Shown here: in pieces, positions 1 through 25,476 of the stretch
Layout of the letters: each line of letters begins with the position of its first letter
How positions within the stretch are numbered: the first letter of the stretch is position 1
Origin: a virus
Virus record (IMG/VR): IMGVR_UViG_3300030117_001349
Location: 1 to 25,667 of that record
Length of the DNA stretch: 25,667 bases
Strand: one strand, 5' to 3'
Notes under the pieces: generated by a model
Databases searched by the model: none
Told to the model about the DNA's origin: nothing
Seen by the model: the letters and a program-made list of their open reading frames with translations, nothing else
Program-made: the position numbers and the translations under genes

Positions 1-3000
1 TGGAAAAAACAATTTATCTATAATCTGTGTATCAGGTAACAATCCACCTGCAGGTATAGCTACCAAAGGTCCTAGACCAGGCATTGGATTACCTGCAACC
101 ATGTTAAGAGATGATGCATAACCTTCTAGTTTCAATCTAACATCTGGTGCTTCCATCATTTCTCCTGTAGCAGGATTTTTGATTACTTGATTTTTATCTT
201 CTCCAAACATAAAGTTTGTAAGAAGTTCTGTTCCAGGAAAGAAAAACATTTCCTCTCCTGATTGTTCATCTGTATGGAAGAAGCCTTCTTCGCCTTCTTC
301 TCCTGTGCCTCTAGCTCCTTGAATAACTCGTTGTACTTTTCTTCCTGATAATAATTTTTGTTGATTGATTAATCTTGACCATGTTCCTAATATTTCTAAG
401 TAAACTTCTGCGAAAGGAAATGCAAGTCTTAACATGTCAGATACTGCATGTCTTTTATTTAAATCATAAAGAAGTTTTTGTGTTTCTGTCAATGCGTATG
501 ACTTAGCCATCTCATCAAGTTGTGCTAAATCATCTGCACCTAACGTTCTTGATGCATCATCTATCTTTGTACCTCTAAGTATCTTTGCTGTCTTAGCAGA
601 GTTTTTTACCCATTTTGATGCTGGTTCTTCTGCTGCTTTTATAATTTCTTCTCTTAGTGCATCATCATAAAATCCTGCGTTGCCTTCAATGTACTTCCAA
701 TAAAATTGTCTAAATGCACTTGAACGAGATAATCTGTTTGTAGGTATTGCCATAAACCCTGTGAACAATCCTTCGATTACTTTATCGTATGTGCTAATTC
801 TTTCTTTACTTAATGTATGAACAGACCTTTTCATAACATGATTGTCTCCATAAATAGCTCTGTCTTTTTGTAATTTATTTAAATAACTTTTATATTTTCT
901 GTGGTCATCTAATGTTTGTGTTCTACCAAATGTAATACGCTCGTCACCAATTTGAAGTAATTGTGGTCTTCCTCTTGGTACAAACTGTGTAGCTCTTTGT
1001 ACTTCTCTACCAAAAGCAATATGTTCTAGTAACTCTTTATCACCTGGTTGTGTTATCTCATGTCTGATAATGCTATCCATTCTTGTACGAGGATTAGCAG
1101 CAACTGACATTTTAGAATCTGTTAGTAATATTCTTGAACCATCAGCAAACTCTTCAAATGTTTTAAAATGACCACCAGTCTTATAATGTAATCTTGCAAG
1201 TATTCCCTCTATGTAACCATCTGCAGCATTTTTATCTGTAAGCATTCTTGCTTTTCCATATTTACCTGGTTCATCAGCAAAATTAGTTAAGGCATATCTC
1301 CATTGTGATAAATCATTTCCTTCTTCAAAAAATTCTTTTTTAATTTGATTAATTACATTTCCATCTATTGTAGATTCAAATCCTGATTTTCCACCTTTTC
1401 TACGAGCCTCTATAAAGTTCTCTAATGTAATAGCGTGTGAAACAGGAGCATCTGGTTTGTAATATCCTAACGTATAATCATCAGGTAAATTATCGATAAC
1501 ATTTAATTGTTTTTCTCTCATATCAGCTAATCTTTTTATTTGATTATCAGATAATCCATCAGGAACTTTACCAGTTTCTAACCAAGTTGCATGTAAATCA
1601 ACAACTTTTCTAATATTTGCATCTGTACTACCTTCTGATATTTTTACTATTGCATCAGGACCACCACCTTGATAATAAAATGGATTAGGTAATTCACCAC
1701 CTCTCATAGCTAAAACAGAACCAGGAGTTCCTCTAGAAACTATTCTAGATACAGATGCATCAACAGGACTACCTAAAAGACGATAAGCAATCTCTGCAGC
1801 TAGTGGGTCATCAGATAACTGTAAAATATCTGTAGCAGCAGCATCAATAAATCCATCATCAACAAGTCTTACTCTTTCAAAACCTTTTTCCATTTCTAAA
1901 TTAAATGGTTCTAGTACACCACCATGAGTTTTTGTCATTGCACTTTGAGCATATAAACTTTCTCCTATTACATCACCCTGTATGTCATATACACCTTTAG
2001 CAATTAATCTTTCTGCTACTTCATCATCATCAAATCCTCTTACCTTATGGAATATTTTTTTTCTATCTTTACCCATAATCCAAGCAAAAGCAGATAAAGG
2101 ATGACTAAATACGTTATCTAGATTTCCCATCCACATACGAACTTGTTCTTCACCAACAACCCTTGATGTCCATGCAGCTCTCAAAAGTATTAATGGTTTC
2201 CATGCTTTGTTCATAAAACCATCACCTACTCTACCTAAATATCCTGCAGTAAGTTCTCTAACTGTTTCATCATCACTAGCAATCTTGAATTGTTTTCTTG
2301 CATTCTTTACAAATAGTTGTGCATATTCTGTAACACTTTTGTCAGGTTTTACTGTTAATTCATAAAGTTCTTTAAGTGGTTTAGAAAGTTCTTTTTCAAA
2401 CTCTGAACTTATAAATTCATCTTTTGCAATACCTTCTAACTTCGTATCTATAAGTCTTCTTTTACCTGTAAGGTTCATAAAAAACTCTCTTGCAGGAGAA
2501 AACACTCGTAAGAACATTCTTGCATCTGGCATAGGTATTGCATCACTTGCAAGGTATTCAGCAATAAGTTGTGCTGTAGGTTGTTCATATATTTTAGAAA
2601 CGTTTTGTATTTCTGCTTGTGTAAGTAATGCTTCAAGAATTTGTGGTTCATCTGGAAATCCAGTCATAGCCATTTTAGATAAAACATTTGTTAGTGCTTC
2701 ATCTTGTCTAGCGATAGAACCTTTTGTTGCTTTACTATCAACTAATCTAAATCCTTCATTTACTTTTTGAGCTAACTTATTCATAGATTCAGGATTTTCT
2801 AATGCCCACTCTTCCCACAATTTTTCATAAAGATTTTTTGTAGAATCAAAATCTCCTGGTCTTACTTGACCACTTCCATCAGGTGCTCCTGATTTACCTT
2901 TAGTTCCAGGAGTTCTTTTATTTTTTATAGTGTTTTGATAAACATCTTCTATTGTTCTACCTGCATAAGGTCCTTCTCTAAATGTTGCATTTAAAGCAGA

Positions 3001-6000
3001 AAACTTTTTACCTAGTTCATCACCAGCAGTAGATACTTCAAATGCACCTTTTCTTCCTGCACCTATTTGTCTATTTTGAAAAAAGTCAAGTAATTGTTGT
3101 GGTGTAAATTTACTGTTCTCAATAACTTTTCTACCTTCTTTTGTAACAAGTTTGTTTCTACCTTTCATAAAGATTGGTTTCAGTAACATAGCTAATTTTT
3201 CTTTGTTTTTAAAGTCTCTTGAACCTGCAACATTAACAGTTTTTCCATTTATTAATTTTCTAGCTTCTAAAATAAATTCATCTGTAAGTTTTGTATTTTC
3301 TTCTATAAGTATTAATGGTTTGTTTAAAGTATCTTTAAATACACCTGTTTTAAATTTTTCTGTATCTTTAACTATTGCTGGTAACTCATCATTTCCTACC
3401 CATCTATTTCTTGATGCATACACTAAAGTTTTTAATGTACCAACGTTTTTACCAGACCGACCTGAATTAATTAATTTATTTTTATTAAATACAACTATTG
3501 TTACATCTGTATTATCAACATTAGCTGTAGACCTTTTTGCATACCATCTTGCATTTGGTTGAACTGCACCTGGGTCTGATTTAAGTGCAGCTATTTGTTC
3601 ATTAAGGTCTATATATTTTTGGACTTGAGCACCTTTCATATCCCCAAGTTTGTCTAATTGTAAAAGCTGTAATTGATTATTTTTTAGTTCAGCTCTTAAC
3701 ATTTTTACTTTTTCTCCACCTGCTTTTTCATGTTGCCTATATGCATCAATATCAAAATTGTCATATTCAATTCTTTGATAGGTTTTGTTTATGTTTCCTT
3801 TACCAATACTTGCACCTTCAGGAAGAATAGGCTTACCTAAATTATTTCTTGGTACACCAGCATCTGTAGTTCCTCTAGGATATTCTGCAACTTTGATTGC
3901 TCTTTTTAAAATTCTAGGGTCTGCAACTACATCTGCTTCGTTGATACCAACATAATAAACAACTTTGTAATCACCAGCAAAATCTATTGGTGAACCTATT
4001 CGTTCAAATTCTGTAATAATATCTTCTAATGGTCTGTCTCTATCTACACCTAAATCATCTATGTTTACAGAAGTTTCTTTTATTCTTTTACCCTCTTGTG
4101 TTTGTCCTTTAAAGTTTTTACCTTGTAATTTAACATTCAAAGATTCTAAAGTTTGTTTAGCTTTTATAGCTCGTTTTAAAGTATATTGAATTTGTTGGTC
4201 TGTAGGATTGACATCAAGTATACCTTTGTTTAAAAGAGCAGTTGTTTCTACATTTATTTGATTTATAAGACTATCTATTTTTTGTTCTAGTTCGTATCTT
4301 TTATTTAACAAAGATGGTGTGTCATCAAGAATCATGTCGTTTATTAGACGTTCTGATAATTGTTTTAATGATTTATCTTTAGGTAAAGATTTGTAACCAC
4401 CTCTTGCTAATGCGTTTAAAGCTAACCATCTTTCAGTTTCACTCTTTGTAAAAGGAATATTGTTCTCTCTTTTTTTTCTAAGTGCAACATACGCTGCTTT
4501 ATTTTTGTCTGTAAGTCTATCAAATTCAAATTTAGAATCTTTAAATCTTTTATTTGATTTCAACATTTGTATTTCTAATTGTTTTAATTCATCTTGTAAT
4601 GATTGCAATACTTCTTCTGTTGTATCTTCAACATTGTATTTAAGTAACTTAGATTGATTAGCATCCCACCTACCATCAATTTGTCTTGCTTGTGTAAGTC
4701 CTGGCATACCTTTACCACCTGTAGGAATACCTAGTTCTTCAGCAATTTCTAGTGCTAAAGTATCAACACCATCTTGACCACCACTATTTACAGCTTTAGG
4801 AAATATGTTTGCTTCTGGTTCTAATAAATCTGCGTAACCTTCTGGTTCTGCATATTCTAAAAACTCATCTTGTAATTGTTTAAGACTACCTATCTCTTCT
4901 TTCCTCATGCCTGTGGTTGTAGCAATGTTATCTAATATTTTAAGTATGTCTTCAGCAGGTAGCTGTTGAGCTAATATGTTTGTACCAGCAGAATCCCCTG
5001 CTACTAATTTTTGTCCTTGAAACCATTCTTCACCAAAGTTAGTTGTAAAGTATTTTCTAGTTTCATCTACTGAAGTCATAAATTCTCTCATACCTTTTAC
5101 AAGTTCTGGTGGTAAATCAAGTGCAATAAATTTTTTCTCTATATGTGGAAACACTCCTGTTTTTGGATTACCTAAAATATCTAAAACATAAACAAGATTT
5201 GCTAACTTAGCAGGTCTTGGGTCTTGTGGTCCTCTTTGCAAATTTTGTAAATTTTTTATTGTTTCATCATCTACACCATCTGCTAATTTATCTAATGCTT
5301 TTATAGCTACATCATCATCTACTTTTGCCCATCTCATCCAATCTTTTAATTCAAAGAATGTAAGATTTAAATCATTTGCATAAAGTTTTGGAGAAGGAAA
5401 CTGAGTAAACAATCTACCCCATTTAGAATCGGTAGCATTTAGTTTCATAGAAGTTCTAAAACCAATACCTTTATTACCATAGAAAGTTCTTGATGCGGCT
5501 CTAGAAAATTTACCTTTAAATATTAATGAGTTGTTATCAAGTCTTTGTGTAAGATTTGATGCAGGTTCATCTATTACATTTGCTAACAATGATGATATTT
5601 CTTCTGGGTCTTTTGAATCTCTTAGTTTTTTAAGAAGTGACGCACCACCATCAATTTGTCTTGCTTGACCTTTTAAAATTATATCTATATTGTCATATGT
5701 GGTTTGTTCAGCAATAAGTTCTGCTATTTCTCTACCTACAGGACCTTGAAAAAATTCTTTACCTGTAGGTTGATGTACAGTTGCTCTAACAGCTTTGTTT
5801 ATCAAACCAGCTTGTTCTTTAATATTTGGATTGTAAGTTCTTGCAGCTTTACCAGCTTTTGCCAAACCAATTCCGACATATGTTGAAGGGTCTGTAAATA
5901 TTGTATATGCACCATCAATAAGACCTGACATAAATTTAAATGCTTTCGAGCCAGGTTCAAATATAGAAACAGCAGCTACACGACCTGGTGATAGTTTAAC

Positions 6001-6729
6001 TGTACCTCTTCTACCTGTGTAAGATGATGCAGCTCTTTCTCTTCTATCTATAACATCTTGAGATATTGGAGCACCATATTCGTTTTGTATTGCTTCTGCA
6101 ACAACATCTGGGTCTGCACCTCTACCTACTAATTCTTTATAGAGTTCTGTATCTTGTGCAAGAGTAGAATTACCAAAGTAACCTTCACCTAAGTTTACTT
6201 TATTACCTTTTGCAATCTCTCTAATAGCTTTACCTGCAAGTGTTGGTCCTGTTTCTTTTTGTACATTTTTTACTTCTGTATAAAAATCAGGATTAATTAA
6301 TGCTGCTGCTGTACCTATACCAGAAAAAAACAATAAAGGGTTTTGTTGTTTCTTGTTATAGTATCTCATACCAGCAGTGCCATATCTTTTTATAAATTGA
6401 CTTGCAGACTCTAAACCAACAAATGTACCTCGTATTGCACCTCTTCCAGCAGCTTTAATACTTTCCCACCAACTTCTTTCTTTATTAAGATACTCATTAA
6501 TAATTGGTGTAAACTCTGGAGACTCAGCAGCAAGACCAATCATAGCTGCACCTACTTGTACATCAGGTGGTAAGAACCCATACTTCTGTGCAATAGCTGC
6601 AGTATTTTGTGCTATTTGATTTTGTGAAAAATAATTTCTTAATTCTTGTGCTTGTTTTTTTCTAGCTTCAGCAAATTGACTACCTAAGAAGTCTTCGTAT
6701 GGAGATGTAAAATTCCATTCCCATGCCAT
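1..6729 (-). CDS. Giant virion/polyvalent-type protein, C-terminus outside window
   Basis: An uninterrupted reading frame of 2243 codons runs off the left edge. It starts MAWEWNFTSP, with AAGGAGA seven bases upstream. It lies directly downstream of terminase and portal, where phages place large internal virion or head-associated proteins, so a packaged, injected multi-domain protein is likely (inference). Residues 649-702 read SGGQDGVD, then GIPTGG, then NVED. Residues about 1066-1185 hold STANVDNTDVTIVVFN and, near 1166, NVAGSRDF. Together these match the two halves of a molybdenum-carrier/YpsA-type SLOG domain. About 360 residues between them are rich in Lys, Glu, Leu and Gln and look like coiled coil. 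The rest is helical and charged with no family I recognise. No signal peptide is seen. It could alternatively be a tape-measure-like protein, but its site next to the portal argues against that. Confidence 0.85.
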   Translation of the reverse strand, partial: MAWEWNFTSPYEDFLGSQFAEARKKQAQELRNYFSQNQIAQNTAAIAQKYGFLPPDVQVGAAMIGLAAESPEFTPIINEYLNKERSWWESIKAAGRGAIRGTFVGLESASQFIKRYGTAGMRYYNKKQQNPLLFFSGIGTAAALINPDFYTEVKNVQKETGPTLAGKAIREIAKGNKVNLGEGYFGNSTLAQDTELYKELVGRGADPDVVAEAIQNEYGAPISQDVIDRRERAASSYTGRRGTVKLSPGRVAAVSIFEPGSKAFKFMSGLIDGAYTIFTDPSTYVGIGLAKAGKAARTYNPNIKEQAGLINKAVRATVHQPTGKEFFQGPVGREIAELIAEQTTYDNIDIILKGQARQIDGGASLLKKLRDSKDPEEISSLLANVIDEPASNLTQRLDNNSLIFKGKFSRAASRTFYGNKGIGFRTSMKLNATDSKWGRLFTQFPSPKLYANDLNLTFFELKDWMRWAKVDDDVAIKALDKLADGVDDETIKNLQNLQRGPQDPRPAKLANLVYVLDILGNPKTGVFPHIEKKFIALDLPPELVKGMREFMTSVDETRKYFTTNFGEEWFQGQKLVAGDSAGTNILAQQLPAEDILKILDNIATTTGMRKEEIGSLKQLQDEFLEYAEPEGYADLLEPEANIFPKAVNSGGQDGVDTLALEIAEELGIPTGGKGMPGLTQARQIDGRWDANQSKLLKYNVEDTTEEVLQSLQDELKQLEIQMLKSNKRFKDSKFEFDRLTDKNKAAYVALRKKRENNIPFTKSETERWLALNALARGGYKSLPKDKSLKQLSERLINDMILDDTPSLLNKRYELEQKIDSLINQINVETTALLNKGILDVNPTDQQIQYTLKRAIKAKQTLESLNVKLQGKNFKGQTQEGKRIKETSVNIDDLGVDRDRPLEDIITEFERIGSPIDFAGDYKVVYYVGINEADVVADPRILKRAIKVAEYPRGTTDAGVPRNNLGKPILPEGASIGKGNINKTYQRIEYDNFDIDAYRQHEKAGGEKVKMLRAELKNNQLQLLQLDKLGDMKGAQVQKYIDLNEQIAALKSDPGAVQPNARWYAKRSTANVDNTDVTIVVFNKNKLINSGRSGKNVGTLKTLVYASRNRWVGNDELPAIVKDTEKFKTGVFKDTLNKPLILIEENTKLTDEFILEARKLINGKTVNVAGSRDFKNKEKLAMLLKPIFMKGRNKLVTKEGRKVIENSKFTPQQLLDFFQNRQIGAGRKGAFEVSTAGDELGKKFSALNATFREGPYAGRTIEDVYQNTIKNKRTPGTKGKSGAPDGSGQVRPGDFDSTKNLYEKLWEEWALENPESMNKLAQKVNEGFRLVDSKATKGSIARQDEALTNVLSKMAMTGFPDEPQILEALLTQAEIQNVSKIYEQPTAQLIAEYLASDAIPMPDARMFLRVFSPAREFFMNLTGKRRLIDTKLEGIAKDEFISSEFEKELSKPLKELYELTVKPDKSVTEYAQLFVKNARKQFKIASDDETVRELTAGYLGRVGDGFMNKAWKPLILLRAAWTSRVVGEEQVRMWMGNLDNVFSHPLSAFAWIMGKDRKKIFHKVRGFDDDEVAERLIAKGVYDIQGDVIGESLYAQSAMTKTHGGVLEPFNLEMEKGFERVRLVDDGFIDAAATDILQLSDDPLAAEIAYRLLGSPVDASVSRIVSRGTPGSVLAMRGGELPNPFYYQGGGPDAIVKISEGSTDANIRKVVDLHATWLETGKVPDGLSDNQIKRLADMREKQLNVIDNLPDDYTLGYYKPDAPVSHAITLENFIEARRKGGKSGFESTIDGNVINQIKKEFFEEGNDLSQWRYALTNFADEPGKYGKARMLTDKNAADGYIEGILARLHYKTGGHFKTFEEFADGSRILLTDSKMSVAANPRTRMDSIIRHEITQPGDKELLEHIAFGREVQRATQFVPRGRPQLLQIGDERITFGRTQTLDDHRKYKSYLNKLQKDRAIYGDNHVMKRSVHTLSKERISTYDKVIEGLFTGFMAIPTNRLSRSSAFRQFYWKYIEGNAGFYDDALREEIIKAAEEPASKWVKNSAKTAKILRGTKIDDASRTLGADDLAQLDEMAKSYALTETQKLLYDLNKRHAVSDMLRLAFPFAEVYLEILGTWSRLINQQKLLSGRKVQRVIQGARGTGEEGEEGFFHTDEQSGEEMFFFPGTELLTNFMFGEDKNQVIKNPATGEMMEAPDVRLKLEGYASSLNMVAGNPMPGLGPLVAIPAGGLLPDTQIIDKLFFP

Positions 6730-15418: not shown

Positions 15419-15541
15419 CGCTACATGTAATACCTAATTCCATTTCATTCATTAGGTAAGTAAGAAAAAATTATGTGTAGCGTGGTGTTCATGGTTGTAA
15501 CCAATTAGCCCTTTGTTCAATCAACTGTGAGCACCACGCTA
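15419..15541 (+). ncRNA. Two-domain structured leader RNA with mutually exclusive stems
   Basis: Domain 1: CGCTACA (15419-15425) pairs with TGTAGCG (15476-15482), and inside it TACCTAAT (15431-15438) pairs with ATTAGGTA (15451-15458). Domain 2: TAGCGTGGTGTTC (15478-15490) pairs with GAGCACCACGCTA (15529-15541), 13 bp with one G-U, with GGTTG/CAATC possible inside. TAGCG (15478-15482) is needed by both domains, so only one outer stem can form fully at a time. No T-run follows, so the element is not an ordinary terminator. It is the leader of the MoxR-vWA operon; the ribosome binding site of its first gene starts about 10 bases later. Confidence 0.55.
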
Positions 15542-15563
15542 TTCATATAAAAGAAGGAGAGTA

Positions 15564-15725
15564 ATGGATATGCAATGTGATGTCTGCCCTACGGGCAGAT
15601 ATATCAATCTATTGGTAGAAGCATGTGTCAAGAGTTCCGTTTATTACAGAGTTCAATGTACAACATGTGGACACCAGCAAGTAAATCGCAGCAATACTAA
15701 GAGAGATGAGAGGAGGTATATGTGA
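15564..15725 (+). CDS. Zinc-ribbon micro-protein (53 aa)
   Basis: The protein begins MDMQCDVCPTGRYINLLVEA and contains CxxC at residues 5-8 and CTTCGH at 32-37, a two-knuckle zinc ribbon. AAGGAGAG lies seven bases before the ATG. The stop overlaps the GTG start of the next gene (GTGA), so the two are coupled. It is the first gene after the structured leader and may be a small DNA/RNA-binding regulator of the operon. Confidence 0.7.
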   Translation: MDMQCDVCPTGRYINLLVEACVKSSVYYRVQCTTCGHQQVNRSNTKRDERRYM

Positions 15726-16255
15726 GCGAATTATACGAGCCTAGTGAAGGCGAGGCTAAAGACTATGAGGAACGATTGGAAAATGTGTTTGACATGCAAG
15801 ACCTTGTTACATATTTTCCAGCACCGATAAAAACTATGTTCGGTGGTAACGTCATATTCAGTAATGACAATAAGCTTGAACAAAAACGTTTCAAGTTCAA
15901 AGCTACCAATCCTGTCGTGGTGATGGCTATGTTCTGGGAAAGTTTGTGGCAACAGTTTCTTATGGACACCCACCATGCTTTGGTAAATACATTACAGACT
16001 CTTGTAAAAGATATCAAAGATGATGAGCACAATACTGTGCCCACTGAATTGATTGAGAGTTTACTTAAGAAACTTGCGACTAGAAAAGCAAGTGATGAGT
16101 TGCTAGAACTCTTTTACAAGATGATGCCTGATGCAGTAGCTATTGGTAATCCTGATGTAATCGGCAGAAGTCAAGCAAAGATGATTGATGATAAAGATAT
16201 CAAAGGTTATGTTGATGATATGTTGAAAGAAATATTCAATGCTGAGGAGGAGTAA
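15722..16255 (+). CDS. Unknown protein of the MoxR-vWA operon, GTG start (177 aa)
   Basis: The protein begins MSELYEPSEGEAKDYEERLE. The start is GTG, fixed by AGAGGAGG upstream and the GTGA overlap. It is acidic and helical, with a hydrophobic stretch near residues 66-80 (VVVMAMFWESLWQQF) too short and charged to be a clear membrane segment. The C-terminus is a helix ending NAEEE. It could be a substrate, adaptor or structural partner of the ATPase; there is no recognised family. Confidence 0.75.
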   Translation: MSELYEPSEGEAKDYEERLENVFDMQDLVTYFPAPIKTMFGGNVIFSNDNKLEQKRFKFKATNPVVVMAMFWESLWQQFLMDTHHALVNTLQTLVKDIKDDEHNTVPTELIESLLKKLATRKASDELLELFYKMMPDAVAIGNPDVIGRSQAKMIDDKDIKGYVDDMLKEIFNAEEE

Positions 16256-16347
16256 TGGATAAACCAGATGATTACTGGATTATTACACCAAGTGGAGATA
16301 GGGTACACTCATCTTGGCTTGATGATGTAAAGAAAGAGGAGGAATAA
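16255..16347 (+). CDS. 30-aa micro-protein
   Basis: The frame begins MDKPDDYWIITPSGDRVHSS and ends DDVKKEEE. The start overlaps the previous stop (TAATG) with GAGGAGGAG upstream, and its stop overlaps the next start, again TAATG. Exact tiling in a tightly coupled operon supports translation. The order resembles one small strand-loop (YWIITPSGDRV) plus an acidic tail. Function unknown. Confidence 0.6.
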   Translation: MDKPDDYWIITPSGDRVHSSWLDDVKKEEE

Positions 16348-16604
16348 TGAAAGATAAATTCCTTGAAAACTATAAGGAATATCTGTTCATGTCTTGTAAA
16401 GAGTGTTCACAAGATAGACCAGATGGTAAATCCCTTAGAGATTGGCAACGATTACAAATCGGTGTCAATGGAAGTACAATGATTATCTTTTGTGAAAGGT
16501 GCGAGGATATTGTTGCAAGATTTCAACATGATATGGACGTACCTGAATCATGTGATTGTTGTACAGATGAAGTAATAGAAGGAGGATATAATGAGTGGAA
16601 ATAA
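16347..16604 (+). CDS. Zinc-binding small protein (85 aa)
   Basis: CKEC at residues 17-20, CERC near 50-53 and CDCC near 69-72 give six or seven cysteines, enough for one or two zinc sites. AAAGAGGAGGAATA is directly upstream of the ATG. It overlaps the next gene by 14 bases. The acidic C-terminus ends GGYNEWK. It is the second zinc-knuckle protein in this operon. Nucleic-acid or protein adaptor roles are possible; no family is recognised. Confidence 0.7.
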   Translation: MKDKFLENYKEYLFMSCKECSQDRPDGKSLRDWQRLQIGVNGSTMIIFCERCEDIVARFQHDMDVPESCDCCTDEVIEGGYNEWK

Positions 16605-16917
16605 CTTCACTCCAAAAAAGATAGGAAAGGAATTTCCTAAGACAAGAAAAGGGGGGACTGCAAAGTACTTTACTGAAGGTACAGCAAGTCTTCTAAGTGC
16701 AAATATGGGAGATGTGTTCTTAATTGTACACATTGAAAATATTGGTAATGCACAAAAAGTAATGGCGAAAGGTAACTCTTTGAGAAACTCTGCTCGTCTA
16801 TTTCAGTTGAAATTTGATACTGATAACCCTGACTTAGAGTTCAAGTATGCTGTAAGACAGTCAGTCAAAGATGGTGGTTATGTAAAGGTATTCGCCAAGA
16901 TAATAGAAAGGAACTAA
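16591..16917 (+). CDS. Unknown beta-rich protein (108 aa)
   Basis: The protein begins MSGNNFTPKKIGKEFPKTRK, a basic N-terminus, followed by strands such as DVFLIVHIENIG and RLFQLKFDTDN and a C-terminal YVKVFAKIIERN. GAAGGAGGATATA precedes the ATG. Alternating hydrophobic patterns suggest a small beta-barrel or sandwich. An OB-fold ssDNA-binding protein is possible but unproven. It is part of the MoxR-vWA operon. Confidence 0.7.
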   Translation: MSGNNFTPKKIGKEFPKTRKGGTAKYFTEGTASLLSANMGDVFLIVHIENIGNAQKVMAKGNSLRNSARLFQLKFDTDNPDLEFKYAVRQSVKDGGYVKVFAKIIERN

Positions 16918-16919
16918 TT

Positions 16920-17477
16920 ATGGACTATGACAACAGTTTCAGTCCTGAGGTACAAGAGATGGTTGATAAGGTACAGAACTGTGCTATTACTGTCGCTATT
17001 CTCAACTACCTCAACAATGAATCTATTGAAAGAAACTTCAATAGACAGATTAGAGAAGGCTTCCTTGATATAAGTAAGCCTCCTACAAAAGAAGACATAG
17101 ATAGATATGGTGCAGAACAATGTAACCAAGTTGCAGATGACAGATTCCCTGTCATTGTAAAACTAGCTATGCCTCATTATTGGAAGCAAGGTATACCAAG
17201 TGAACTTCACTTCAGACTTATGGTAGAAGTCGTTGTGAGAAATCTTGATGGTACTGAGCCTGACAAGAAGTATGCTTCTTTGTTTGTAGATGTTACAAAA
17301 GAAGCATTCGGTATGTTGCCTAATATACCAAGCCTAACTTGGTTGAACGAGGTAACAAACACAACTGATGAGTTCTTTAAAGAGTGGTCTGAAAAAGATA
17401 CAGACCAAATGACAAAGGACTTCATTGATGAAATAGAAACAATGCTGAATAGTTCAGCAGAAGGAGAGGAAGAATAA
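16920..17477 (+). CDS. Unknown protein before MoxR (185 aa)
   Basis: The protein begins MDYDNSFSPEVQEMVDKVQN, is acidic and helical, and has WL and FF aromatic patches in the second half (SLTWLNEVTNTTDEFFKEW) with an acidic end (AEGEEE). AAAGGAACTAATT precedes the ATG, and it ends 1 base before the ATPase start. Tight linkage suggests that it works with the ATPase, possibly as substrate or adaptor. No motif is recognised. Confidence 0.75.
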   Translation: MDYDNSFSPEVQEMVDKVQNCAITVAILNYLNNESIERNFNRQIREGFLDISKPPTKEDIDRYGAEQCNQVADDRFPVIVKLAMPHYWKQGIPSELHFRLMVEVVVRNLDGTEPDKKYASLFVDVTKEAFGMLPNIPSLTWLNEVTNTTDEFFKEWSEKDTDQMTKDFIDEIETMLNSSAEGEEE

Positions 17478-17478
17478 C

Positions 17479-18165
17479 ATGACTAAAGAGAGTAGTCAGT
17501 GTTGGAAAATCTTTGATGCTATCATGGGCAACACTCCAAGAGTATTGCTTTATGGTGTACCTGGTACAGGTAAATCGTATCAAGCCAACACAACAAATCT
17601 AGAAGGTAGAGAAAGCTTCAATGTTACGCTAACTGAGGACAGCTCAGCTAGTGAGATGATTGGACACTATGTTCTAAATGAAGAAGGTGGTATGTCTTGG
17701 ATGGACGGAGTAGGTATTCAAGCATGGAAAGATGGTGCTAGACTTGTTATCAACGAGATAGACCATGCAGGTACAGACGTTATGTCTTGTCTACATGCAA
17801 TCCTTGATGACCCTGAGTTCACAAAGTATACACTACCTAATGTACAGAAAGAAACTGTAAGACCACAGCCTACGTTTCAAGTTGTTGCAACTATGAACGG
17901 AGTGCCTGAGGACTTACCAGAAGCATTACTTGACAGATTTCCTGTCAAGATACATATTGATACTGTTCACCCAGATGCAATAGAGATGCTTCCTGAGAAA
18001 CTAAAGTATGTCTATCACGACTACAACAATGGACAGTTCTCTGTTCGTAGATGGATAGCACTAGCTGAGCTAATGGAGAAAGAAGTAGATACTGATATTG
18101 CAGTCAAGTCTATTTTTCCAGACCAAGCTGATGATATACTAGATGCTCTTGCTGTTGCAGAGTAA
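17479..18165 (+). CDS. MoxR-type AAA+ ATPase
   Basis: The Walker A motif is GVPGTGKS at residues 26-33 and Walker B is LVINEID at 89-95. Sensor 1 is TMN at 138-140 and the arginine finger is in DRF at 152-154. These are the elements of the MoxR / AAA_5 clade, which remodels partners with a von Willebrand A co-factor, as in RavA-ViaA and NorQ-NorD. At 228 aa it is shorter than usual (about 300) and has only a short C-terminal lid (RRWIALAELM). GGAGAGGAAG precedes the start. Its stop overlaps the vWA start as TAATG, ensuring paired synthesis. It probably forms a hexamer; the substrate is unknown. Confidence 0.9.
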   Translation: MTKESSQCWKIFDAIMGNTPRVLLYGVPGTGKSYQANTTNLEGRESFNVTLTEDSSASEMIGHYVLNEEGGMSWMDGVGIQAWKDGARLVINEIDHAGTDVMSCLHAILDDPEFTKYTLPNVQKETVRPQPTFQVVATMNGVPEDLPEALLDRFPVKIHIDTVHPDAIEMLPEKLKYVYHDYNNGQFSVRRWIALAELMEKEVDTDIAVKSIFPDQADDILDALAVAE

Positions 18166-19919
18166 TGCTGTTCAAGAAAAGAAGTAAAGCACTTGATAAA
18201 GAAAATCACTTTATCAATCTAGCTTTACAAGATGAAGGAAAGAAAGAAGTCTATGTACATGACTTACTAGATGTACCTAATGTACTAGACAAGAATACTG
18301 TTCCTGTTCTTATTAATGCTGATAAACAAATACAACGTAGAGAACGTATGTATGGTTTGATGCAGAACAAACTATTTGGTAAAGCAAGGTACTTGAAAAT
18401 GTTACCACATGACAAGAAGTTTGCTCTACCTGTTGCTCAAAGGATGTCAGTTCTCTGGCAGTTTGACAGAATAGCGTTTACAGCACGAAGGACATTTCGT
18501 AATCTGTATTCAATGAGGCAGGAAAATGGTTTGAGAACATCATTGACTTTCTCATCATTGAGAGATATTGCTTATCGTATTGTACATGAGTTCTACAATG
18601 AGAGCGACAAGAAAACTATTTGGAAACTACTGAGTAGGACTGTCGGTATGTACAATATTCGTGTAGCTAAAAGTGATTATTACTATGGTTTGAACACCGA
18701 GTTACCAACGCACATTGCTAAACACTATATTAACAATGAGCCTTTGGAAACAGGTTATTACAACTTTAGTGATTATGCTACTGATATTCCATATCATTTT
18801 GCTGTTTACATAGCACAATCTATTGAACAAGCACAACCTACTGCAAGTAGAAATCAACTGATGGAGGACTTCAAGTTCATATATATTCATATATTGGCTT
18901 ATTGTCAAGGTCTTAAATCAGGTGCTAGAGTTCTATCAAGAAAGAGAAACAGCAATGTTACTCAACAGAATGTAAAAGATATTGTAATGTACCTAAGTTA
19001 CAATAACTTTTTGAATTGGCTAGAAACCTCTGTGAACAACGGAGATATACTAGAGTTACCTTTTGGTACACCAATCACTAATTCTAAGATAGAAGCTCTT
19101 GATGATGATGAGTTTGATAGTAAATTCTCAATCAGTGAGTATGGTCGTGTTACTGAGAGAGAGGACAATGAGGAATACGAACTACTGAAGGAAAACAGTA
19201 TGGTATTACCTGATTGGGTAGACAGCGACTTAGAAAATGAAATCATTAAACAAGCTAATGATATGGTAGAGAAACATGTTCTCAATGCTTGGTCGCATGA
19301 AGCTCAACATGGTAAAGCAGTACGCAGAAAGTTTGTTCCTAATCGTAGGGATAAAGTTGCAGAGATGAAGTTGCGTAAGCAACTAAGTGATGCAGGTGTC
19401 AAACCTAGAGATGTACACAGAATACTTACTGATAAGAAAGTATTTTCTAGAAAGAAAAGAGTTGCAGGTGGCTCTGTAATGATTGACTTTAGTGGCTCTA
19501 TGGGTTGGTCTGTTGATGAGATTAGAGAGATTATACGCATACTTCCAGCTAGTACGATAGCTGGTTATGTCGGTTATGATGGTATTGAACACAATGGTGA
19601 AATTGTGTCGGGAGATATTCGTGTCATTGCTGATAAAGGCAAGTATGATGATAGTGCTGTTCTTAAACTGAAACAGCATGGTGCTAACAATATTGACTTA
19701 GCTGCTATTAAGTGGCTAGGCGAACAAGATGAGCCAAGAATATTTGTAAGTGATTTGCAAGTTGTCGGTGTTAATGAATATGGCGATACTGCAAGTGGCT
19801 TATCTAAAGAATGCAGGGCAGATGTTGTGAGAGCTATTGCTAAACATAACATCATACCTATTGAAAGCTATGATTTGGTAAAGAGATTTGCTGAGAGATA
19901 TGCTAAGCATGTAGGTTAA
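18165..19919 (+). CDS. von Willebrand A-domain partner of MoxR
   Basis: The 584-aa protein has a helical N-terminal part (about residues 1-360) unlike any family I recognise. A basic linker (384-432) leads to a C-terminal vWA domain. The metal site (MIDAS) is DFSGS at 441-445, with the third Asp in RIFVSD near 530. Where canonical domains have Thr there is GANNID (506-511), so one ligand may be replaced. There is no ribosome binding site of its own, and it is coupled to the ATPase. Phage MoxR-vWA pairs are rare; the archaeal virus ATV has a known analogue. Likely function is chaperone-like remodelling of virion or host complexes. Confidence 0.85.
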   Translation: MLFKKRSKALDKENHFINLALQDEGKKEVYVHDLLDVPNVLDKNTVPVLINADKQIQRRERMYGLMQNKLFGKARYLKMLPHDKKFALPVAQRMSVLWQFDRIAFTARRTFRNLYSMRQENGLRTSLTFSSLRDIAYRIVHEFYNESDKKTIWKLLSRTVGMYNIRVAKSDYYYGLNTELPTHIAKHYINNEPLETGYYNFSDYATDIPYHFAVYIAQSIEQAQPTASRNQLMEDFKFIYIHILAYCQGLKSGARVLSRKRNSNVTQQNVKDIVMYLSYNNFLNWLETSVNNGDILELPFGTPITNSKIEALDDDEFDSKFSISEYGRVTEREDNEEYELLKENSMVLPDWVDSDLENEIIKQANDMVEKHVLNAWSHEAQHGKAVRRKFVPNRRDKVAEMKLRKQLSDAGVKPRDVHRILTDKKVFSRKKRVAGGSVMIDFSGSMGWSVDEIREIIRILPASTIAGYVGYDGIEHNGEIVSGDIRVIADKGKYDDSAVLKLKQHGANNIDLAAIKWLGEQDEPRIFVSDLQVVGVNEYGDTASGLSKECRADVVRAIAKHNIIPIESYDLVKRFAERYAKHVG

Positions 19920-19933
19920 TCTAGATTAATTTA

Positions 19934-20028
19934 CTAGCTATGTCGCTCTCTTCGTAGCTAGAAGTGGGGTGTAGTGTAAAAGGCGTTTATTCATTTAGCC
20001 TTCCTTTTCTACACCCCACATTTTTTTT
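19934..20028 (+). terminator. Strong terminator after vWA gene
   Basis: GTGGGGTGTAG (19964-19974) pairs perfectly with CTACACCCCAC (20009-20019), 11 bp, followed by eight T (20021-20028). Inside, AAGGC can pair with GCCTT. Just upstream lies a smaller CTAGCTA/TAGCTAG hairpin (19934-19961). It closes the plus operon that began near 15419. No gene lies in 19920-20071. Confidence 0.8.
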
Positions 20029-20071: not shown

Positions 20072-20341
20072 ATGAAAGATACAGAGAATATAGATACGTT
20101 GCTTGATAAAGCAACTAAGAATACTAAAGGTGGACATGTATCTTGGTACAAAAGAGTACCTAGTGATGCCCAACCTTTTGTAGATGAATTACAAAACAGG
20201 GTTGTAAACGAAGGTGTCAAAGCTAATGCAAGAGTGGTAGCAGACATCTTAGCTAATGAATACGATTTCGTAGTATCGTACTCTAGGGTACGTTCTTGGT
20301 TAGCCAAATTGGAACAACAACATGCCGAAAAAAACGGATAA
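20072..20341 (+). CDS. Putative helix-turn-helix regulator (89 aa)
   Basis: The C-terminal half (residues 50-83, containing ANARVVADILANEYDFVVSY and SRVRSWLAKLE) has the pattern of a helix-turn-helix. The N-terminus is acidic with a short basic/aromatic patch (GGHVSWYKRVP). No Shine-Dalgarno is present and the ATG coincides with the predicted transcription start. It overlaps the phosphoesterase gene by 20 bases. A DNA-binding regulator or an initiator or small terminase-like protein are the main options. Confidence 0.55.
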   Translation: MKDTENIDTLLDKATKNTKGGHVSWYKRVPSDAQPFVDELQNRVVNEGVKANARVVADILANEYDFVVSYSRVRSWLAKLEQQHAEKNG

Positions 20342-21386
20342 ACAACTAGCTAGTCTAATCGCTGAAGCTGAAAGCGATAAGATAAAAGACCTTAAGAACA
20401 CTAACGAACGATTGCTTAGACAAATAGACAAACTCAAAGACAAGAAAGCAGACTTAATAGAAGCTGTATATCAAGGTGCTCGTGATGGTATGAGCACTCT
20501 AACCCTTCCTAAAATATCTAAAACAACAATCCCCAATAAAAAGACTAAGGACACCGAGATTTGTGTGCCGTTGCTCTCAGATATTCAACTAGCAAAGCGA
20601 ACCCCAGACTATGACAGTAAGATTGCAGAGAAGAGAGTTATCGAGTATGCCAATCGTATAGTCAAATTAACTAAGATTCAAAGACAATCACACAATGTAA
20701 ACAAATGTGTAGTTCTTGCACTAGGAGATATTGTAGAGGGAGAGCTTATATTTCCAGGGCAGTCACATTTAATTGATAGTTCTTTATATAGACAAGTTAC
20801 AGTAGATGGTCCAAGAATATTGTATGCATTTTTTACAACTTTATTACAAGAGTTTGATGAAGTAGAGTGTTACTGGGTTATAGGAAATCATGGAGCACTA
20901 GGCGGTAGGTCTAGGCGTGATTATAATCCTGAAACAAATGCAGACAGAATGTTAGGTAAGATACTTGACACTATGTTTGCAAATGAAAAAAGAATAAAGT
21001 TCCATATACCAGAGGGTGTTGACAATCATTGGTATACAGTAGCTGACTTAGGTGTCAAAGCTAAGTTCTTCTGTTTCCATGGTGATAACATTCGTGGAAG
21101 TATGGGGCTTCCTTTCTATGGTTACAACAAAAAAATACTTGGGTGGAAAGCATTAGCATCACAAGGTCTAATGGAAAACTTCACCCATGCAGTCTGTGGT
21201 CATTACCATACTCCAACATCTTTGTACATAAATGATGTTCGTGTATGGGTAAATGGCTCAACTGAAAGTTATAACAGTTATGCACAAGAACAACTTGCAA
21301 GTATGGGAAGACCTTCACAATTTTGTTTGTTTGTGAAACCTTCCAAAGGAGTTACTGCAGAGTATCTTGTTAACCTAGAGGAATAA
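20322..21386 (+). CDS. Calcineurin-like metallophosphoesterase
   Basis: Metal-binding motifs appear in order: LLSDIQL (85-90), LGDIVEG (134-140), GNHG (188-191), FHGDN (252-256) and GHYH (293-296). The first motif reads D-I-Q where the family normally has D-x-H, so one metal ligand is altered and activity or metal use may differ. A coiled-coil-like N-terminus (about residues 14-46) precedes the domain. The 354-aa length is typical. Such enzymes include SbcD/Mre11 nucleases and nucleotide phosphatases; next to the recombination-type gene a DNA role is plausible. Translation is coupled by a 20-base overlap. Confidence 0.85.
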   Translation: MPKKTDKQLASLIAEAESDKIKDLKNTNERLLRQIDKLKDKKADLIEAVYQGARDGMSTLTLPKISKTTIPNKKTKDTEICVPLLSDIQLAKRTPDYDSKIAEKRVIEYANRIVKLTKIQRQSHNVNKCVVLALGDIVEGELIFPGQSHLIDSSLYRQVTVDGPRILYAFFTTLLQEFDEVECYWVIGNHGALGGRSRRDYNPETNADRMLGKILDTMFANEKRIKFHIPEGVDNHWYTVADLGVKAKFFCFHGDNIRGSMGLPFYGYNKKILGWKALASQGLMENFTHAVCGHYHTPTSLYINDVRVWVNGSTESYNSYAQEQLASMGRPSQFCLFVKPSKGVTAEYLVNLEE

Positions 21387-21387
21387 A

Positions 21388-21546
21388 ATGGCGAAAGTAA
21401 AAGAAACTAATGTCAAAGCTGTTGAGTTTGCAGGGGTTGGTTCAATACCATATCTTGTAATACAACAGAAAGATGGTAAGTATAAACATGTACCTATCAG
21501 AACAGGTGTAACAAACCTAAGCGACATTGGTCAAGAAGAAGAATAA
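21388..21546 (+). CDS. Small hypothetical protein (52 aa)
   Basis: The protein begins MAKVKETNVKAVEFAGVGSI, followed by PYLVIQQKDGKYKHVPIRTG and an acidic end DIGQEEE. It starts 1 base after the phosphoesterase stop, with GAGGAATAAA just upstream. The repeated strands suggest a small SH3-like or OB-like barrel. No family is recognised; it lies between two DNA-metabolism genes. Confidence 0.7.
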   Translation: MAKVKETNVKAVEFAGVGSIPYLVIQQKDGKYKHVPIRTGVTNLSDIGQEEE

Positions 21547-21565
21547 ATATAACAAAGGAGTAAAA

Positions 21566-22336
21566 ATGGCTTGGCAGGACAACTATGAAATGGTTGAGGA
21601 TAGGCTCAAAAAGTTTTGGGCAGACTATCCAAATGGAAGAATAGATACACAAGTAGTACACATCACTGATGATGGAACATGTGTAACTATTAAAGCAGAG
21701 ATATTTACTGGAGAAGAAGGAGAGGTATTTCCTGTAACATCAGGTATAGCTCAAGAAACTAAAGGGCAAGGCGGATTTGCAAATGAAGATGCTTGGGTAG
21801 AAAACTGTGAGACATCTGCGATTGGTAGAGCGTTGGCTAATTATAAGTATCAAGGCTCAGGTAAAGCAAGACCTAGTGTTGAAGAAATGAGTAAAGTTAA
21901 AAAGGGTAAGCAACCGCCAATGCCAACCAAAAATGAGGAGAAGGACATTGCTCAGGGGGATGGAAAAAAGGCTACGCCTCCGTCCTCCACTTCTCCTGTA
22001 CAACAAATAAAGGACGCAGGGTTTGGCAATAGGATTGGAGATAAACACCCAAGCGGTGAACTTGCCATAAGTGCAGATGGTTTGCTTTGTATATGTGGTG
22101 GTCTCGTGAAATATGTAAAGGCTCAAGAAAAAAACAAACCTACTAGCCCTGACTTTAGATGCACTCTTGCAGCTAAATGTACAGCAGGAGATACAGTAGA
22201 TGGTAAAGTATTTTCTAAATCATGGTGGATGGACAACAAATCTACACCAGAGAGTTGGAAAGATTTTGCAGCAGTATCTAATGGTATGAAGTTACCAGAT
22301 ATTAAGACTCTTGATAAAGGTGATGTACCTTTTTAA
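21566..22336 (+). CDS. Putative ssDNA-annealing/recombination protein with SSB-like tail
   Basis: I start at MAWQDNYEMV because AAAGGAGTAAAA directly precedes this ATG; an earlier in-frame ATG 13 codons upstream lies inside the preceding gene. Residues 79-93 (ENCETSAIGRALANY) resemble the conserved ETSAIGRAL-type motif of phage Rad52/ERF-like proteins. A Lys/Pro/Ser-rich linker (about 100-150) follows, then a possible zinc site (CICG, later FRC and AAKC). The protein ends DKGDVPF, like the C-terminal DDDIPF tail of SSB that recruits replication enzymes. It probably acts in recombination or replication; the family call is from pattern memory. Confidence 0.65.
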   Translation: MAWQDNYEMVEDRLKKFWADYPNGRIDTQVVHITDDGTCVTIKAEIFTGEEGEVFPVTSGIAQETKGQGGFANEDAWVENCETSAIGRALANYKYQGSGKARPSVEEMSKVKKGKQPPMPTKNEEKDIAQGDGKKATPPSSTSPVQQIKDAGFGNRIGDKHPSGELAISADGLLCICGGLVKYVKAQEKNKPTSPDFRCTLAAKCTAGDTVDGKVFSKSWWMDNKSTPESWKDFAAVSNGMKLPDIKTLDKGDVPF

Positions 22337-23318: not shown

Positions 23319-23500
23319 TACTTTCTAAATCCTATAGTCAGTAACCAAACAGCAAGTGTTATTACTGTAGCTAGTCCTGTTATCTGTTGAGCACTACCTG
23401 TAAGGGTAAGTGTAGCAATAACTAAACCAACTAAAGTCCATGATAAGTTCAATGTTTCTTTTATAGCCTCAACTAACCAAGTCCATAGTTTTTTTATCAT
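23318..23500 (-). CDS. Two-helix membrane protein (60 aa), holin-like
   Basis: A basic start (MIKKLWTWLVEAIKE) is followed by two hydrophobic helices, about residues 18-36 (LNLSWTLVGLVIATLTLTG) and 41-57 (ITGLATVITLAVWLLTI), then FRK. AGGAAAACATT precedes the ATG, which overlaps the stop of the large exported protein (ATGA). The size and topology suggest a second holin, antiholin or pinholin. It cannot be assigned to a family by eye. Confidence 0.7.
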   Translation of the reverse strand: MIKKLWTWLVEAIKETLNLSWTLVGLVIATLTLTGSAQQITGLATVITLAVWLLTIGFRK

Positions 23501-25476
23501 AATGTTTTCCTAAACATAAATGCTGCCATAGTAGCTATTCTAGTCAAAATAACTGGCACTACCACTTCTTGTGCTTTTTCTTTTTGGTCTGAAGTCATGT
23601 CATCTCCAATGCTTGATAATTTAATTTCTGTTAAATCTATATCAACAAATGTTTCTATTGGATTATCTAAGAATGTTTCAAACTGTACCTCTGTAACAAC
23701 GTCAGCAAGTGTGTAGTTTTCTACATCTGCATTTTCTACAGCTCTCTCGACATACTCTTCAACAGCTACTGCAACAACTTCGTCTTCTTTTACAGCCTCT
23801 GCAATAATCTCAACATCTTCTTTCTGTACCTGTAATACTTCTGCAACAACCTCTACTTGTTCCTCCGTAAGTTCTTCTATTTCTTCTATAGCCTCTTCAA
23901 CAACAGCTTGTACTATCTCTTGTACTTCTTCTGTAGCTTGGTCTAGGTTTTGTACACCTATATCATTGACCTCTTCTATAACTTCTATAACTTCTTCGGT
24001 GTCGAGTTCTTGCACATATACTTCAATGGCTTCTTCAACTTCTTCATCTGTTAAGTCTTCTTCTATTTCTATTTCAATAATTTCAATTTGTACTTCCACG
24101 ATTTCATCTTCTTGCGGAATTTCTTCCTCTGTCTCGGAGTCATCTCGTAGTACATCTTTGTCCAACTCATTAACTTCTTCCTCTATAATTATTTCTTCTA
24201 TATCAATTACGATATCTTCTATCTCTTCTATTATAACAATTTCTATATCTTCGAAGGTGTCTAAGTATTCTTCAACCTGAAGGACTGTTTCATTAAACTC
24301 TTGAATTTCTTTTTCAATATTTCTTTCTTCTTCAGTTTTATGTTCGGGTTCATCTTGATGTCTATCTTCATTAACATCAGGTATATCAACATCATCAGAA
24401 AGCTCTTCTCTGTCCTCAACCATATCTTCGTCATCAATGATTTCAATATCATATTGTTCTAAATCTCCTCTCTCAATTTGTTCGTCAGTTAATTCTACAC
24501 CATATATTTCGTAATTTTTTCTACGTTCATTATCTCTTTCTACAGTGCCATCATCTATCTCATGTTGTTCATACTCTGCTTCAGTTCCATCATCAAGTAC
24601 AACAACAATTGTTTCGGGTTCGGGTGGTGCAGGAGGTGGTGGAGGAGGAGGAGGTGGAGGAGGTGGCAATGTTGTAGTAGTTGTTGTAGTAGGTTGTATA
24701 TATTTAAATGATATATTATCTAACAAAGACCAGTCATTTATTGTTATGGTAAAACTTTCTATAAAAGTTTCAAGAGTATCGTATATGTTATACACCACAT
24801 CTTCAAACATATTTTCTATATCTGTATTGTCCTGACCTTCAAGAACATTTTCTTGTGTAGTTTCATCAGTGTGTGTATATGTAACTGTGCCGTCATTATT
24901 TAATGCACCAATTCTAAAACCTACTTCATATATATCTATTTCTAGTTCTTCTTCATCTACTGTTGTTGTTTCAGGAAGAGTAAATGTATAGTCATTACTA
25001 TCATTTCCATGTTGAAAATAATGTAAGTTCATATGAAAGTCTTCCATACCACAACAATTCCAATTACCATTGCTGTGTTTATCGTCTATTTGTATATTAT
25101 TTTCTACTTCATTACCCTGACTATCTAGCTCATCTTCAGGAATAATTATGTCTGTAGTCTGTTCATAAGTTTCAGGAACAGTTGTTGTAGTTGTTGTAGT
25201 CGTAGTAGTAGTTGTAGTATCTGTAGTTTCTTCTTCTACTTCTTCTTCTGTTTCTTCTTCTGTTTCTTCTTCTACTTCTTCTTCTGTTTCTTCTTCTAAA
25301 GGACCATCAAAAGTTTCTACTTCCTCGACTTCTCCTGGGATAGTCGTAGTAGTAGTATCAGGTACAGTAGTGGTAGTAGTAGTTGTAGTATTATCTGATT
25401 CATTTGCTAAAGCCGATAATGGCATAACAATAAGTGATAGTACTAACCACCATTGCAACAGCCGTGTCCGCAGCAT
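23497..25476 (-). CDS. Exported acidic low-complexity protein (659 aa)
   Basis: A signal peptide is visible (residues 1-25, hydrophobic core LLQWWLVLSLIVMPLSALA). Tracts of Thr follow (TTTTTTTTVPDTTTTTIPG), then repeats of Glu with Thr/Val (about 57-84), more Thr, a Pro run near residues 272-286, and a long Glu/Ile/Val-rich coiled-coil-like part (about 400-600). The C-terminus (VVVPVILTRIATMAAFMF) may be a membrane anchor. NWNCCGMEDFHMN holds its two cysteines. Poly-Thr-Val-Pro linkers resemble secreted proteins of marine Acidimicrobiia-like actinobacteria. AGGAGG is 9 bases before the ATG. It probably acts in the envelope: lysis, exclusion or attachment. Confidence 0.75.
   Translation of the reverse strand: MLRTRLLQWWLVLSLIVMPLSALANESDNTTTTTTTTVPDTTTTTIPGEVEEVETFDGPLEEETEEEVEEETEEETEEEVEEETTDTTTTTTTTTTTTTVPETYEQTTDIIIPEDELDSQGNEVENNIQIDDKHSNGNWNCCGMEDFHMNLHYFQHGNDSNDYTFTLPETTTVDEEELEIDIYEVGFRIGALNNDGTVTYTHTDETTQENVLEGQDNTDIENMFEDVVYNIYDTLETFIESFTITINDWSLLDNISFKYIQPTTTTTTTLPPPPPPPPPPPPAPPEPETIVVVLDDGTEAEYEQHEIDDGTVERDNERRKNYEIYGVELTDEQIERGDLEQYDIEIIDDEDMVEDREELSDDVDIPDVNEDRHQDEPEHKTEEERNIEKEIQEFNETVLQVEEYLDTFEDIEIVIIEEIEDIVIDIEEIIIEEEVNELDKDVLRDDSETEEEIPQEDEIVEVQIEIIEIEIEEDLTDEEVEEAIEVYVQELDTEEVIEVIEEVNDIGVQNLDQATEEVQEIVQAVVEEAIEEIEELTEEQVEVVAEVLQVQKEDVEIIAEAVKEDEVVAVAVEEYVERAVENADVENYTLADVVTEVQFETFLDNPIETFVDIDLTEIKLSSIGDDMTSDQKEKAQEVVVPVILTRIATMAAFMFRKTL
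25180..25395 (-). repeat. Low-complexity triplet tracts inside the exported protein
   Basis: Two Thr-encoding tracts (25180-25220, 25335-25395) flank 15-base-like repeats coding EEETE (about 25227-25298). A Pro-encoding GGA/GGT tract lies at 24630-24666. They are in frame and encode the linkers, and are likely to vary in length between relatives through slippage. Confidence 0.6.

Follow-up and report, generated by a model that had tools for sequence, protein, structure and literature searches.

An eight-gene cassette on the + strand of the window (the whole analysed stretch, a 25,667-base virus record; cassette at positions 15564–19919) is most plausibly read as the main non-structural module of its phage lineage, in which a MoxR-vWA AAA+ remodelling machine with dedicated partners would act on an early host or phage client. 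MoxR-vWA pairs remodel protein complexes. The two-gene motor of ATPase and vWA protein is a known viral module, and any novelty of phage-borne pairs as such that the initial annotation might imply does not hold, as they have already been published (PMC8651126, PMC7824862, PMC4124505). For the conserved cassette around the motor and for the C-terminal glutamate tails of its proteins, no description was found in the searchable literature.

Gene organization and the ATPase-vWA pair

All eight + strand ORFs of the previously described coupled run are present, joined by overlaps of 1–14 nt or gaps of 1–2 nt. The first gene encodes P0001 (15564..15725, 53 aa), a zinc-ribbon-like protein with a CxxC...CxxC pattern, whose family was found in 22 relatives in the first scan. 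It is followed by P0002 (15722..16255, 177 aa, family F21), a helical protein ending in EEE, and by the 30-aa P0003 (16255..16347), which also ends in EEE and is kept only in the closest relative; other relatives carry different genes of 41–46 aa at this position. P0004 (16347..16604, 85 aa) is zinc-binding-like with a CxxC motif and belongs to family F37 in the relatives. The CxxC motifs of the two proteins formerly called zinc-knuckle proteins are present, but zinc-ribbon-like is the better name and none scored above a Pfam cut-off. P0005 (16591..16917, 108 aa, family F46) precedes P0006 (16920..17477, 185 aa), the third core component, which was used to seed a scan of its own and again ends in EEE. 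The AlphaFold2 model of P0006 (pLDDT 85) had no match in the PDB, and its best BFVD matches were unnamed or uncharacterised viral proteins of 91–116 aa. Kinship among the cassette families was not detected by hhalign, apart from a weak match between Zn2 and Zn3.

P0007 (17479..18165, +, 228 aa) is a MoxR-class AAA+ ATPase, as the initial annotation had proposed. It consists of a bare AAA+ domain with an AAA_5-type core and matches Pfam AAA_5 (2.7e-19, 70 bits, cut-off 22), Pfam bpMoxR (3.6e-7, 29.9 bits, cut-off 27) and the CobS-like PHROG 249 (4.8e-23). In profile comparisons, the ATPase matched NorQ (1.4e-16), CbbQ (4.4e-14) and Midasin (3e-16 for the best single domain; the very low E-value of the whole protein adds up several AAA domains). 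The Walker A (GVPGTGKS in P0007), Walker B (VINEID), sensor and arginine-finger motifs are kept in 16 relatives. The Walker B aspartate is replaced by asparagine (N92), which is invariant in 16 diverse relatives and also occurs in the ATPase of Brevibacterium phage Cantare; the catalytic glutamate is kept.

P0008 (18165..19919, +, 584 aa) comprises a helical N-terminal part, which had no sequence match, and a C-terminal vWA domain with a MIDAS site (D441/S443/S445, N508/D511, D530). The DxSGS motif (D441, S443, S445) and D530 are invariant in 44 diverse vWA proteins. The MIDAS threonine is replaced by an invariant asparagine (N508), as read from the vWA alignment. No Pfam match was obtained for P0008. 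The model of its C-terminal domain has a vWA fold, with weak, marginal Foldseek matches to TFIIH p44/Ssl1 and BatB, which together with the invariant DxSGS bears out the vWA assignment made earlier. Direct profile comparisons of P0008 with the partner genes of three other phages were not significant, and tblastn found no match of the vWA protein in isolates. Given the asparagines N92 and N508, ATPase and MIDAS activity are assumed here.

Flanking RNA structures and genome context

A leader hairpin (15472..15547, +, 76 nt, approximately 25 bp) lies about 20 nt before the first start codon, and an intrinsic terminator (19964..20019, +, T-run to approximately 20028) follows the vWA gene. Both are far outside shuffled sequences (leader fold of 15425–15563: −44.1 kcal/mol, z −6.0, 0 of 200 shuffles as good; terminator: z −7.4), in agreement with the structured leader and strong terminator described initially. 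A hairpin with T-run is found 3' of the vWA gene in most relatives. At the leader position, most relatives have long hairpins of other sequence, which are weak or absent in some. A known RNA family for the leader was not found in Rfam.

A different structured RNA element was observed upstream of or inside the cassette in 40 nonredundant relatives (L040:4058-4146, L030:4467-4555, L036:5382-5470 and 37 other loci). It consists of a stem P1, a conserved internal loop (AGUA R G / C Y GAA), a covarying stem P2 and an apical CCCUGUU; compensatory double changes were detected in 10 of the 14 predicted pairs in an alignment of 25 sequences. The element had no Rfam match. A covariance model located about one strong copy per relative contig. 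It gave no match in the window, where the long hairpin further downstream is all that is kept. For L010 and L040, an alternative pairing of the 3' arm with a second, later occurrence of the 5' arm is conceivable, which hints at a possible switch.

The next gene downstream, in the relatives as well, encodes F8 (20072..20341, +, 89 aa), which is HTH-like by inspection. It is followed by a gene for an SbcD-like metallophosphoesterase/exonuclease (20322..21386, +; PHROG 284, 3.2e-40) and by F9 (21527..22336, +, 269 aa; PHROG 11717 of unknown function, 2.8e-29). The C-terminal tip of F9, GDVPF in the window and GEAPF or DDAPF in most relatives, resembles the tail tips of SSB proteins. The cassette lies on the strand opposite to the terminase, portal and capsid genes and adjoins the exonuclease and other non-structural genes, in the early/recombination arm. 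Searches with the larger proteins of G004, a relative of 44.6 kb, recognised no polymerase, primase, helicase, ribonucleotide reductase (RNR) or cobalamin family; this is an absence of recognition only, since most of these proteins had no match at all.

Two long ORFs on the − strand stand out elsewhere in the window. One, of at least 2,243 aa (1–6729), runs off the contig; its counterparts in relatives have 2,284–2,698 aa, and the one tested had no Pfam match. The other encodes a 659-aa protein (23497–25476) near the lysis genes with a putative signal peptide and Thr-rich (TTTTTTVP) and Glu-rich repeats. The threonine repeats recall secreted proteins of Acidimicrobiia. The cassette was found on two contigs of one marine Actinomycetota MAG and also on one contig in a gammaproteobacterial MAG, so that binning may mislead on the host. 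The nearest exonuclease of an isolate is that of Streptomyces phage Dagobah (43%). The same arm of Dagobah carries a gene annotated as the ubiquitin-like protein Pup (L163:22613-22849).

Conservation of the cassette and the C-terminal glutamate tails

IMG/VR was scanned with four seeds, namely the ATPase, the vWA protein, P0006 and the exonuclease downstream; a single scan found up to 412 relatives, and no more than 80 loci were retained from each. The motor was present in hundreds of contigs from related marine phages, almost always accompanied by the same set of small proteins, and conservation of the cassette in the relatives far exceeds chance. The gene order in the relatives is zinc-ribbon gene, P0002 family, small zinc and other proteins, P0005 family (in some clades), P0006 family, ATPase and vWA, followed by F8, the exonuclease, a small gene and F9. 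An adjacent vWA gene with MIDAS was present in the window and in every locus of sufficient length to judge. Exonuclease loci that extend more than 3.5 kb upstream numbered 198; all of them carried ATPase and vWA genes and 190 carried P0006, counts that are not independent because the loci overlap and several derive from one contig. P0006, ATPase and vWA occurred together in 119 loci and were recovered from the independent P0006-seeded scan, in which the ATPase adjoined P0006 in 69 of 70 loci, the exception being a cut contig; P0006 was found only beside the ATPase. Where there was room, the P0002 family lay upstream of the ATPase and vWA genes in most loci (95/136).

The loci are not near-identical copies, as they include ATPases with identities down to approximately 46% and vWA proteins with identities down to approximately 20% to those of the window. 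The most distant clade retains ATPase and vWA, with no P0006 detectable, so that P0006 is not indispensable to the machine. In this clade, P0002-like and P0005-like genes precede the ATPase according to weak profile matches (hhalign E 3.5e-4, probability 37%, for P0005 and the ATPase-adjacent gene of 101–103 aa). The pair is thus accompanied by the same and not by unrelated neighbours across divergent relatives; unrelated neighbours in all of them, the pattern expected if no conserved system existed, were not seen, and the earlier description as a dedicated system gains support. The cassette-bearing relatives appear to form one lineage of roughly 40-kb marine tailed phages, and the conserved neighbours could reflect synteny of this lineage rather than function.

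A C-terminal EEE occurs on unrelated small proteins throughout the lineage, on both strands and in many relatives. In the window, four genes end in this way (15722-16255, 16255-16347, 16920-17477 and 21388-21546). On nine contigs of the group, 40 of 446 ORFs had a C-terminal EEE compared to 0.55 expected from the internal EEE frequency (approximately 70-fold), and 33 terminal glutamate runs were exactly three residues long. None of 205 control ORFs (Dagobah, 50 kb of HTVC008M and five other phage ATPase loci) ended in EEE; the ORFs were predicted with a simple caller, and the set of controls is small. Overlap with the Shine-Dalgarno (SD) sequence of the following gene accounts for many of the tails (GAGGAGGAA before TAATG), but not for all. 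With an SD-like motif at the gene end, acidic tails were found in 71/100 cases in the cassette versus 17/69 elsewhere, and without it in 30/141 versus 21/365. Among P0006 members lacking a terminal SD motif, 12 of 14 nonredundant proteins end in two acidic residues, usually within EEE encoded by GAAGAAGAR, and the linkers before the tail vary in length. Two acidic C-terminal residues were also found in 32 of 35 nonredundant members of the P0002 family, and EEE tails occur on small opposite-strand genes. A purine run without regard to frame was rejected as a cause, as the 54 all-purine gene ends read 40 EEE, 11 KKK and 3 other.

That the tail might serve as a MIDAS ligand is a guess. As a client tag, EEE would be gripped by the MIDAS metal of the vWA protein, which would bring P0002- and P0006-family and other proteins to the MoxR motor; we consider this rather unlikely. 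If true, EEE and MIDAS would constitute a virus-encoded tag-and-remodel system. Alternatively, the tail might protect the C-terminus. The CobST phage loci that were examined gave no sign of a general link between phage MoxR-vWA pairs and EEE tails.

Possible function of the cassette

The cassette shares the combination of a MoxR AAA+ protein and a MIDAS vWA protein with NorQ-NorD and CbbQ-CbbO, from which it differs by the lack of a Nor or Rubisco client. Midasin/Rea1 has the same AAA_5-class domains and a MIDAS domain binding acidic ligands, but is one giant chain that acts on ribosome precursors. In NorQD, the vWA partner is held by the motor ring and binds an acidic client residue through its MIDAS (PMC13036017, PMC9976466). 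By analogy to NorQD and CbbQO, the cassette probably acts in a similar manner. P0007 would probably form a hexameric ATP-powered ring, on which P0008 probably docks its vWA domain, offering the MIDAS metal to an acidic residue of the client; ATP turnover would then twist or pull the client, as has been described for NorQD. P0006 and P0002 are most likely clients or adaptors of the machine, the zinc-ribbon proteins less surely. The client that matters would most likely be a host or phage complex handled early, for example, of the replication or transcription machinery, because the phage has no recognisable polymerase, primase, helicase or RNR. Gene content, conservation, position and the catalytic and MIDAS residues are observed here; the hexamer, the contact of ring and vWA domain, the identity of the client and the timing are inferred.

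Of the two roles proposed in the initial annotation, host takeover fits the position of the cassette better than virion assembly. A chaperone for tail or head proteins has precedents in virus-encoded MoxR proteins with a vWA partner, namely ATV p618/p892 and the MoxR-vWA-metallopeptidase system of jumbo phages, which are proposed chaperones (PMC4124505, PMC7824862), and the giant structural-arm proteins (>2,200 aa) could need such help. However, no peptidase domain was recognised in the cassette, its partners are different, and it lies with the exonuclease module, opposite in strand to the terminase, portal and capsid genes. Because of the recombination-gene neighbours and the divergence from the structural genes, early host takeover, judged by position alone, is the better guess, and we regard an assembly role as improbable, though less so than the readings below.

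A phage CobST, in which the pair would work with the CobN of the host, so that cobalt enters the corrin ring and more B12 becomes available for nucleotide synthesis, was proposed for cyanophages and haloarchaeal viruses (PMC8651126). This two-gene cobS-cobT cluster is widespread among tailed viruses (PMC8651126). It includes cyanophage CobS and the 'peptidase' of PHROG 459 and, as here, sets a MoxR-class ATPase beside a larger protein that bears a DxSGS vWA motif. P0007 matches PHROG 249 and weakly TIGR01650 CobS, and the best isolate matches were cyanophage CobS and an actinophage ATPase, the latter followed by a gene named cobalamin biosynthesis protein. Nevertheless, P0007 is a bare 228-aa domain with 26–34% identity to CobST-type ATPases over approximately 60% of the query and scored 19.5 bits in the CobS NCBIfam model, far below the family cut-off of 558 bits. 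P0008 had no CobT match in Pfam, PHROGs or NCBIfam and no significant similarity to the vWA partners. For the conserved partners, a place in cobalt chelation is not evident, and P0002, P0005, P0006 and the zinc proteins were not found beside the CobS-like genes of the cyanophage, pelagiphage and actinophage loci examined. No RNR, CobN or cobalamin family was found among the proteins tested, although the CobN of the host could serve. The position in the early/recombination arm and the lack of a recognised replication, RNR or CobN gene favour host takeover over cobalt chelation, which we consider quite unlikely. Least probable of all is a counter-defence or conflict module related to MoxR-vWA ternary conflict systems, since P0007 exceeds the Pfam bpMoxR cut-off but scores far better with AAA_5, no beta-propeller or effector partner was found among the cassette proteins, PADLOC gave no convincing match, and the cassette is universal in the sampled lineage, whereas most counter-defence genes are patchy.

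Annotation often places viral MoxR-vWA pairs among the B12 genes. As this lineage keeps the motor with its own partners and has no recognised gene for B12 or nucleotide synthesis, it offers a simple system for finding the true client, and the EEE tails provide a testable guess as to how a viral MoxR-vWA machine may choose its clients.
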